From: a virus
Direction: 5' to 3' (one strand)
IMG/VR virus record: IMGVR_UViG_3300047678_000272
Location: 1-26,810 of that record
Length of the DNA stretch: 26,810 nt
Positions within the stretch are counted from its first letter, which is position 1, and each line of letters starts with the position of its first letter. The notes under the pieces are model-generated. The model ran no database searches, was not told where the DNA came from, and worked only from the letters and a program-made list of their open reading frames with translations. The position numbers and the translations under genes are program-made. Positions 23,322 through 24,853 of this stretch are shown here, in pieces.

Positions 23322-23334
23322 GGTCGATTTTGTA

Positions 23335-23381
23335 CTTTTCTTGCCTATTTATCTATAAACGATAAGTTATGGCAAGAAAAG
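23335..23381 (+). promoter_or_regulatory. Start-codon hairpin with internal TATTTAT (GIY-YIG 1)
   Basis: CTTTTCTTGCC (23335-23345) is the exact complement of GGCAAGAAAAG (23371-23381), which includes the G of ATG and codons 2-4. The loop holds TATTTAT (23346-23352). Transcripts from upstream would hide the start; transcripts begun in the loop would not. I-TevI of T4 is controlled this way. Confidence 0.7.
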
Positions 23382-24010
23382 AAAAGAAGTATCACTTCAT
23401 TTATAAAACGACAAACTTACTTAGCGGTAAGTATTATATTGGAATGCACTCAACAGATAACTTAAATGATGGTTATATGGGAAGTGGAAAAAGATTAAGA
23501 CGTTCTTTGAACAAATATGGCATAGAAAACCATAAGGTTGAAATATTGGAATTTGTAAACTCAAGAAAGGAATTGATTGAAAAAGAAAAAGAGATTGTAA
23601 ATCTAAATGAGATTGCAAAAGAAGAATGTATGAATATTACTGTTGGAGGTGAAGGTGGATTTATTAGTGAAGTTGGTTATAAAAAAGGTGCAAAAAAAAT
23701 GAATGAAATAATTAATAAAAGAAAGAAAGAAGATCCAATATTTTATAATAAATGGAAAGCATCAATGGTTGAGAAATTAAAAGAAAGACACAAAGAAGGC
23801 AAAATAAGACATGATGGTTTTTTAGGAAAATCACATACAGAAGATACTAAAAAATTAATGAGTGAAAGAAAAAAAGATATATATAAAGGAGAATTACATC
23901 CTCAATATGGTATGTTTTGGATTACCAAAGATGGAGTAAATAAAAAAATAAAAAAAGAAGCTTTTGAATTTTATATTAATGATGGTTGGATAAAAGGTAG
24001 AAAATTTTGA
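23369..24010 (+). CDS. GIY-YIG homing endonuclease 1 (213 aa)
   Basis: GIY-YIG catalytic module: HFIYKTTNLLSGKYYIGMHS, then GYMGSGKRLRRSLNKYG with the conserved Arg and EKEKEIVNLNE with the conserved Glu. The DNA-binding tail has a NUMOD3-type motif (GFLGKSHTEDTKKLMSERKK) and ends GMFWITKDGVNKKIKKEAFEFYINDGWIKGR, typical of Seg-like phage enzymes. The first 35 residues and the upstream 50 bp are nearly identical to endonuclease 2 at 24841, so they share recent ancestry. Its left edge abuts the CCA of tRNA-Gly. Confidence 0.93.
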   Translation: MARKEKKYHFIYKTTNLLSGKYYIGMHSTDNLNDGYMGSGKRLRRSLNKYGIENHKVEILEFVNSRKELIEKEKEIVNLNEIAKEECMNITVGGEGGFISEVGYKKGAKKMNEIINKRKKEDPIFYNKWKASMVEKLKERHKEGKIRHDGFLGKSHTEDTKKLMSERKKDIYKGELHPQYGMFWITKDGVNKKIKKEAFEFYINDGWIKGRKF

Positions 24011-24020
24011 TACAATAAAT

Positions 24021-24068
24021 GCCGAGTTGAAAGGGAACTCACTGTTGGAGAACAGCCCCTCGGCTCCA
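24021..24068 (+). ncRNA. Mini tRNA-like sequence ending in TCCA
   Basis: GCCGAG (24021-24026) pairs with CTCGGC (24059-24064), followed by TCCA as in the neighbouring tRNA-Gly genes. Inside are CTGTT-GGAG-AACAG (24042-24055) and an alternative GAGTT/AACTC hairpin (24024-24040). At 48 nt it lacks D, anticodon and T arms. It may be the remnant of a tRNA displaced by endonuclease 1. Confidence 0.4.
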
Positions 24069-24069
24069 T

Positions 24070-24145
24070 GCGAAAGTAGCTCATTTGGTAGAGCGCCTGC
24101 CTTCCAAGCAGGGGGTGGCGGGTTCGAGGCCCGTCTTTCGCTCCA
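24070..24145 (+). tRNA. tRNA-Gly (TCC)
   Basis: Acceptor GCGAAAG/CTTTCGC, D arm GCTC/GAGC, anticodon stem CCTGC/GCAGG, loop CTTCCAA and T arm GCGGG-TTCGAGG-CCCGT, with T73 plus encoded CCA. A standard, complete tRNA-Gly. Confidence 0.95.
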
Positions 24146-24146
24146 T

Positions 24147-24254
24147 ATGAGTTTTCAGTATACTTCGTGTGCAAGGAACTGTAAGGTCGCAGATTGCAAC
24201 AGACCTCTTGACTATTGTACATATCGTCAAGTGATCATGAAGATGGTCGAATAA
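24147..24254 (+). CDS. Cys-rich microprotein (35 aa)
   Basis: ATG is the second base after the tRNA CCA. The product starts MSFQYTSCARNCKVADCNRP and has Cys at 8, 12, 17 and 24, enough for one zinc site, then TYRQVIMKMVE and a stop. No promoter of its own; it would come from the tRNA transcript. A chance ORF cannot be excluded, but four Cys in 17 residues in an AT-rich genome is notable. Confidence 0.4.
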   Translation: MSFQYTSCARNCKVADCNRPLDYCTYRQVIMKMVE

Positions 24255-24266
24255 AAATCTGAGTTT

Positions 24267-24339
24267 GCGAAAATAGCACAGTTGGTAGTGCGTAACCTTG
24301 CCAAGGTTAAGGTCGCCAGTTCGAGCCTGGTTTTTCGCT
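24267..24339 (+). tRNA. tRNA-Gly (GCC)
   Basis: Acceptor GCGAAAA/TTTTCGC, D arm GCAC/GTGC, anticodon stem TAACC/GGTTA, loop TTGCCAA and T arm GCCAG-TTCGAGC-CTGGT. No CCA. Confidence 0.94.
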
Positions 24340-24419
24340 CGTAGAGGATTGACGATAGAACACAAGAGTGGTAATCGTATGATGGAAAACATTAAACCCG
24401 TCCAACCAGACGTAAAATC

Positions 24420-24493
24420 GCATAAGTAGCTCAATGGCTTAGAGTACCACCTTGCCAAGGTGGATGTTGCGGGTTCGAGTCCCGTCTTGTGCT
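24420..24493 (+). tRNA. tRNA-Gly (GCC), second copy
   Basis: Acceptor GCATAAG/CTTGTGC, D arm GCTC/GAGT, anticodon stem CCACC/GGTGG, loop TTGCCAA and T arm GCGGG-TTCGAGT-CCCGT. No CCA. Confidence 0.94.
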
Positions 24494-24498
24494 CAAAA

Positions 24499-24675
24499 CG
24501 GTATGCTTTCGGTGTGGTGAACCGAGCCTCCCTTAGAAGGAGGTGTTCTTAGGAAATAAGATTGAAAAGTGGAATGGATTAGTCAGTCGACGGACGAAGC
24601 CTGGAAGCGAAGTAAAGCATGACAAAGTCAGGAGCGCTTCTGATAAAGTCTAGGGTTCAAATCCTCTCATACCGA
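24499..24675 (+). tRNA. tRNA-Leu (TAG) with large structured insertion in the variable region
   Basis: Acceptor CGGTATG/CATACCG, D stem TCGG/CCGA, anticodon stem CCTCC/GGAGG and loop CTTAGAA (TAG at 24534-24536). A normal Leu variable arm TTC-TTAG-GAA follows, but the T arm (GGGTTCAAATCC) comes only about 95 nt later. The extra segment folds: TTA-G-TCA (24579-24585) with TGATAA (24641-24646), enclosing GAAGCG/CGCTTC (24604-24609/24635-24640). The T stem itself has only about three good pairs. Confidence 0.72.
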
Positions 24676-24688
24676 CAAAGTTAGAAGA

Positions 24689-24793
24689 ATGAAGTATTAT
24701 TGCGATAATAAACGTCATTTAGTTTGTGATCCATATTCAAAGGAAAACTTACATAAGATGGCAGAAGATTTAGGAATAAAAAAATGCTGGTTA
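24689..24793 (+). pseudogene. Truncated DUF4031 gene, N-terminal 35 codons
   Basis: MKYYCDNKRHLVCDPYSKEN... to KKCWL aligns with the start of the complete DUF4031 gene at 25610, then homology stops at the left edge of endonuclease 2. The frame runs on into junk. It is the displaced 5' end of the target gene. Confidence 0.8.
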
Positions 24794-24808
24794 TTGGTCA
24801 ATTATGTA

Positions 24809-24853
24809 CTTTTCTTGTCTATTTATAATAAAATAGATATATGGCAAGAAAAG
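24809..24853 (+). promoter_or_regulatory. Start-codon hairpin with internal TATTTAT (GIY-YIG 2)
   Basis: CTTTTCTTGTC (24809-24819) pairs with GGCAAGAAAAG (24843-24853). The C-to-T change relative to gene 1 is absorbed as a G-U pair, so the stem is conserved. TATTTAT (24820-24826) follows the 5' arm, 14 nt before ATG 24841. Confidence 0.7.

Follow-up and report, generated by a model that had tools for sequence, protein, structure and literature searches.

A leader that probably keeps selfish nuclease genes silent until late infection, recurring with compensating changes in some 70 related phage genes

The window, meaning the whole stretch of viral DNA analysed here, is a 26.8-kb fragment (26,810 nucleotides) on which two genes for SegB-family homing endonucleases were identified, each combining a GIY-YIG catalytic domain with a SegB-like N-terminal half (Table 1). 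Gene 1 was found to share approximately 52% identity over amino acids 8-98 with the T4-type SegB of T-even phage PP01, which was among its matches. Gene 2 possesses NUMOD3 (E 6e-11) and GIY-YIG (E 1.5e-4) domains as identified with Pfam, and its C-terminal half with NUMOD3 is unlike that of gene 1. The two genes are 84% identical over their first 292 nt, and the first 31 nt of their leaders are 90% identical. The only indications of the phage's host are weak protein relatives in Lak phages of Prevotella and in a 735-kb uncultured phage, together with the T4-like relatives; a search with the protein encoded at 10389-11402 as query found no larger contigs of the same phage.

The ATG of gene 1 is situated 47 nt behind the 3' end of a tRNA-Gly gene, within a tRNA array that also holds an HNH endonuclease gene. 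Gene 2 is an exception to this position, as it occupies a DUF4031 site. It lies between a truncated N-terminal and a complete DUF4031-like copy (the latter at 25562-25825, identified with Pfam), the whole arrangement spanning 24689-25825, as if the target gene had been duplicated or replaced on invasion. Gene 2 keeps its leader from the first base (GGTC). Since this leader is retained despite a different C-terminal half and the DUF4031 site, leader and catalytic half travel together.

Further features of the window were recorded. Same-anticodon tRNA pairs (Pro, Asp, Tyr, Ala, Gly-tcc and Gly-gcc) were found at 19250-24500, with nuclease genes or genes of unknown function inside some of the pairs, and degenerate tRNA-like stretches not called by ARAGORN lie between tRNA-Ala and tRNA-Gly at 22995-23230 (e.g. 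23010-23080, with a TCC anticodon-like loop). Between two tRNA-Arg(tct) genes, positions 420-1631 encode a protein with an arginyl-tRNA-synthetase-like catalytic domain. The phage also carries an ABC importer set at 14520-17680, which comprises a fusion of an NMT1-like substrate-binding domain with an OmpA domain, a permease with relatives in Lak phages and the 735-kb phage, and an ATPase, and is adjoined by a DUF3865/haem-oxygenase-like gene.

Table 1. Features at and around the two SegB-family genes of the window.
Feature	Position	Strand	Basis or remark
HNH endonuclease gene, same tRNA array	20864-21535	+	TATTTAT box at 20841..20847 (+), 23 nt before the gene
tRNA-Gly(tcc), unusual 89-nt form	23233..23321	+	ARAGORN; 3' end is left border of gene 1 leader
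Gene 1 leader, GGTCGATTTTGTACTTTTCTTGCC-TATTTAT-..., from base after tRNA	23322..23368	+	leader type common to 75 distinct relatives
Gene 1 5' arm, CTTTTCTTGCC	23335..23345	+	inverted repeat, RNA folding
Gene 1 TATTTAT, putative late-type promoter box, 23 nt before ATG	23346..23352	+	motif match and phage-wide position peak
Gene 1, SegB-family GIY-YIG homing endonuclease, 213 aa	23369..24010	+	PHROG 314, E 3e-38
Gene 1 3' arm, GGCAAGAAAAG, codons 1-5	23371..23381	+	inverted repeat, RNA folding
tRNA-Gly(tcc), second same-anticodon tRNA flanking gene 1	24070..24145	+	ARAGORN
Truncated DUF4031-like N-terminal fragment, directly 5' of gene 2 leader	24689..24795	+	complete copy at 25562-25825 has Pfam DUF4031
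Gene 2 leader	24796..24840	+	similarity to gene 1 leader; behind protein-gene fragment, not tRNA
Gene 2 5' arm, CTTTTCTTGTC, one G-U pair	24809..24819	+	inverted repeat, RNA folding
Gene 2 TATTTAT box, 21 nt before ATG	24820..24826	+	motif match
Gene 2, SegB-family GIY-YIG homing endonuclease, 258 aa	24841..25617	+	PHROG 314, E 9e-46
Gene 2 3' arm, GGCAAGAAAAG, codons 1-5	24843..24853	+	inverted repeat, RNA folding

A sequence-only reading of this DNA had described an 11-bp inverted repeat at the start region of both genes, a stem preserved by a G-U pair where the sequence had changed, and TATTTAT following the 5' arm in each. All three were recovered: the stem is perfect in gene 1 and contains one G-U pair in gene 2, and the box is directly 3' of the 5' arm in both. 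That reading had also treated the genes as sharing one design, which holds, although not as two separate cases, because the genes are paralogues and thus constitute one observation, with independence coming from relatives elsewhere. Leader RNAs were predicted to fold at -23.4 kcal/mol (z -5.6) for gene 1 and -18.7 kcal/mol (z -4.5) for gene 2, with none of 200 shuffles as good, giving a stable stem in silico over the translation start of upstream-initiated RNA. RNAs beginning just 3' of the box were predicted to fold no better or slightly better than shuffles, leaving the AUG free. The promoter element had been placed in the loop; it does lie between the arms, but in the predicted RNA it is not open, being part of an inner helix that stacks on the 11-bp stem, which makes no difference to a promoter acting as DNA. 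No Shine-Dalgarno site was visible before the window genes. The start hairpin of the HNH gene is weaker and consists of A/T only.

Searches of viral contigs, in which at least 599 candidate stretches matched, yielded 75 distinct SegB-family genes with leaders. In 54 of the 75, as in gene 1, the 3' end of a tRNA lies 35-60 nt ahead of the ATG, with at least 15 tRNA isotypes represented. Leaders of the family are 45-60 nt in length and follow the order GGTCGTTTTTTGTACTT-n-box-n-ATGGCAAGAAAAGAAAAG, running to the ATG, with the box between the arms and 20-28 nt before the ATG. Two hairpin architectures were distinguished. Approximately 30 leaders have their 3' arm in the UTR just before the ATG (e.g. 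TTTGTACTTTCT/AGAAAGTACAAA in L226); in the remainder it is formed by the start codon and first codons, as in the window. All 74 leaders with a recognisable box keep the block TTTTTGTAC(T/C) immediately after the tRNA, even outside the stem, and in the coding-arm class this distal block pairs weakly with later codons (134 of 10000 permutations as low). Some relatives have weak hairpins, mainly those with an ATAAATA box (L193, L236, L175). A loose scan of the collection with TTTTGTACTTN{2,26}TATTTAT returned mostly chance matches and was set aside as evidence.

The flanking tRNAs were also compared. Both carry the same anticodon in 9 of 45 SegB-family cases against 4.4% expected (p 5e-5; 4-5 times). 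SegB of T6 cleaves inside tRNA genes at the motif RAWTSGAAC and amplifies tRNA segments (PMC13096335), and the excess observed here fits such SegB-driven tRNA amplification.

Pairing was investigated in the 74 leaders by hybridising in silico the 30 nt before the box with the sequence after it. Duplexes of a leader's own arms averaged -15.8 kcal/mol compared to -12.0 kcal/mol (sd 0.28) for permuted arms, a value reached in none of 20000 permutations, which ignore phylogeny; relatedness was reduced by similarity filtering, and after removal of similar leaders the excess was still reached by 0 of 20000. The own-pair signal of the UTR class was found in the UTR (z -7.1), and that of the coding-arm class at -6 to +16 (z -8.1) with none in the UTR (z -0.6). 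The region -6 to +9 had a predicted openness of 0.25 in the whole leader, 0.33 with the left part shuffled and 0.66 in RNA from after the box, the start region being more open in the truncated than in the read-through RNA in 74 of 74 leaders.

Compensatory changes were identified in both classes. Nine aligned UTR-type leaders have 81.7% standard pairs; in five pairs both partners have changed, and none of 500 shuffles attained the covariation score. Sliding the partner by 1-3 columns lowered pairing to 42-57%, every slid register being worse. In the coding-arm class, where the arm is also under protein constraint, swaps were seen as CTTTTCTTGCC/GGCAAGAAAAG, CTTTTCTTGG/CCAAGAAAAG, TCGCCATAT/ATATGGCGA and GACATAT/ATATGTC, and the leader follows changes in codons 2-3 (window, GCC/GGC; L031, TGG/CCA and TAGG/CCTA; L132, CGCC/GGCG; L164, GAC/GTC). 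G-U stood to A-C at 40:26 versus 537:577 (p 0.06; p 0.03 with similar leaders removed), and this excess of G-U over A-C mismatches weakly suggests that the stem acts as RNA and not as DNA.

Controls were provided by 82 non-SegB genes with the box, labelled by Pfam. No own-pair excess was found for 57 non-nuclease genes (-7.34 versus -7.08, z -0.9), but it was present in 19 genes with nuclease domains (GIY-YIG, HNH, LAGLIDADG and DUF559; -10.85 versus -8.35, 2 of 20000). As the excess occurs in these 19 and is absent from the 57 others, the hairpin is not a by-product of the box.

The box itself was found to be phage-wide. Of 281 other ORFs on the contigs of the SegB-family genes, 29 have TATTTAT 20-24 nt before the ATG, with 0-3 occurrences per 5-nt bin beyond 40 nt. 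A 327-kb relative, whose major capsid gene is T4-like, has the box at this distance in 33 of 341 ORFs (consensus AGTATTTATAtaAAAA); far upstream, counts are about 1-2 per bin. The isolate Flavobacterium phage immuto has the closest named relative of the capsid protein of the 327-kb phage, and in it the box stands ahead of genes for terminase, portal, sheath, tube, baseplate and PhoH. On account of this position and the genes it precedes, TATTTAT is to be regarded as a putative late-type promoter box, and its occurrence fits a promoter whose transcripts would lack the 5' arm. That it might be the T4 late promoter itself was rejected, TATTTAT being the reverse complement of ATAAATA and ATAAATA showing no position peak in TATTTAT phages (the 281 ORFs and the 327-kb relative). 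The T4 late consensus TATAAATA was not found at the window leaders, which have TATTTAT on the coding strand; this mismatch lowers the case for the same promoter type, not for one that works the same way. Profiles of the gp55 late sigma factor (phrog_234, phrog_12791) had no match in TATTTAT phages, nor did the control have a match anywhere. The large relatives were considered as published bS21 jumbo phages, which was dropped as no S21 gene was found in 8 records. Many small genes with the box (L016, L018, L021, L168 and others) start with MKK..KxxLFExMxK(V/I)..., a motif that may be a virion-packaging tag.

Some other contigs have leaders with GGATAAATAAAATAAAA, and a T4-late-like ATAAATA precedes their other genes. 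At 20-29 nt before genes, one 48-kb contig has 9 ATAAATA and 0 TATTTAT compared to 4 and 45 in the 327-kb phage (Fisher p 7e-8). As read from these genomes, the box follows the phage and the hairpin design stays.

Three other explanations of the leader were considered. The inverted repeat could be a DNA operator bound by the endonuclease, or by some other protein, which would thereby shut off its own promoter, autorepression being known for I-TevI (PMC2988022), and both the position of the box between the arms and the T-rich TTTTTGTAC, conserved whether in or out of the stem, agree with this. Against it stand arm sequences that differ widely, with compensated pairs in place of a fixed motif, a 3' arm that shifts between UTR and coding region and a tendency to favour G-U over A-C. 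We consider an operator in place of the hairpin unlikely, though it is compatible with one and both could coexist. Pairing could also have arisen without selection, from a T-rich leader kept by descent and A-rich first codons (RKEKK). One family is the source of all leaders, and non-cognate arms already reach -12 kcal/mol; even so, cognate arms surpass non-cognate arms of the same composition with or without similar leaders, a codon 2 change is matched in the leader, and pairing recurs in unrelated nuclease genes and not in other box genes, which makes such a by-product improbable.

A role of the leader as a transcription or tRNA 3'-processing signal (a U-tract, or a terminator or pause hairpin) would account for the T-run from the tRNA end and the hairpin immediately after it. 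This explanation is very improbable given that the stems are mostly A-U, that the 3' arm enters the ORF with no U-run behind it and lies at the start codon in both hairpin types, and that the leader of gene 2 persists behind a protein-gene fragment.

The reading favoured here is that the leader is a late-only expression cassette of SegB-family homing endonucleases, to which we assign a probability of roughly 0.77. RNAs running in from the upstream tRNA array, and remnants of tRNA processing, would contain both arms and fold over the AUG, so that no translation takes place. Late in infection, RNA polymerase would be directed to the box and start 3' of the 5' arm, and the resulting short mRNA could not fold and would be translated. 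The nuclease would then be made only when phage DNA is abundant and copying into partner genomes is possible. This logic of a read-through hairpin and an internal promoter giving a hairpin-free mRNA, advanced in the sequence-only reading, is the best-supported reading of the comparative data: own-arm pairing, two alternative 3' arms, compensatory changes, the late-type box distance, box exchange and restriction to nucleases all support it, and from these we infer the transcription start, the timing and the block. In this way the leader probably keeps selfish nuclease genes silent until late infection, in a design that some 70 related phage genes share, with changes in one arm matched in the other.

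A wider proposal, to which we would give even odds, is that GIY-YIG, HNH and LAGLIDADG nucleases of T4-like phages with probable Bacteroidota hosts each gained a start-codon hairpin with the resident box between its arms, the box being exchanged on a move to another late-promoter lineage. Hiding the start codon, with no Shine-Dalgarno site needed, would then be a general licence for late-only expression. From a handful of T4 examples, the analysis of the leaders derives a testable rule, namely that mobile nucleases in early or middle transcripts are silent unless the late promoter of the phage bypasses the leader, for which the 74 natural leaders are ready-made compensatory and box-swap mutants. 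For T4-like phages that probably infect Bacteroidota, a putative late-promoter box is also obtained, and the findings are relevant to the control of SegB itself, an amplifier of tRNA and anti-defence genes (PMC13096335).

The combination of hairpin and late promoter has been described for I-TevI, I-TevII, I-TevIII, Aeh1 mobE and T4 segB (PMC2988022; PMC3014915). The sequence-only reading had likened the window genes to I-TevI of the T4 td intron, where a hairpin stops translation of upstream transcripts and an internal late promoter gives a hairpin-free mRNA (PMC2988022). This likeness is right in mechanism, and I-TevI is likewise a GIY-YIG nuclease, but it is intron-encoded with a hairpin that hides the ribosome-binding site, whereas the window genes are free-standing. 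It is also not the nearest precedent. T4 segB is closer, and such a structure with a predicted late promoter in the tRNA cluster is already listed for it in reviews (PMC2988022, PMC3014915). Like the window genes, it belongs to the GIY-YIG SegB family, lies inside a tRNA array and has a stem over its start codon. The comparison with T4 segB was based on these two reviews and on the sequence of PP01, where segB reads GGAACATAAATACTC...GAGATATTTATGTTCC, with the ATG 41 nt behind a tRNA and a 12-bp stem over the start codon (-21.4 kcal/mol, z -6.3). T4 segB differs in having a T4-late-like CATAAATA inside the 5' arm, in contrast to TATTTAT between the arms in the window; the window genes are without a Shine-Dalgarno site and have the stem on the start region and codons 1-5, their leader sequence is unrelated and the phage group is distant. 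Aeh1 mobE is a free-standing homing endonuclease with a start hairpin and an internal late promoter (PMC2988022), but is of the HNH family and lies at a ribonucleotide reductase locus. A stem at the start region keeps the late genes e and soc of T4 silent on early read-through RNA (PMC3014915); these are lysis or structural genes and not mobile, and in the phages studied here the non-nuclease box genes are without the stem. Compared to these systems, what is new is the occurrence in T4-like phages, whose hosts are probably Bacteroidota, the predicted hiding of the start codon instead of a Shine-Dalgarno site, the exchangeable box, the two alternative hairpin registers and the spread over several nuclease families, including LAGLIDADG and HNH.
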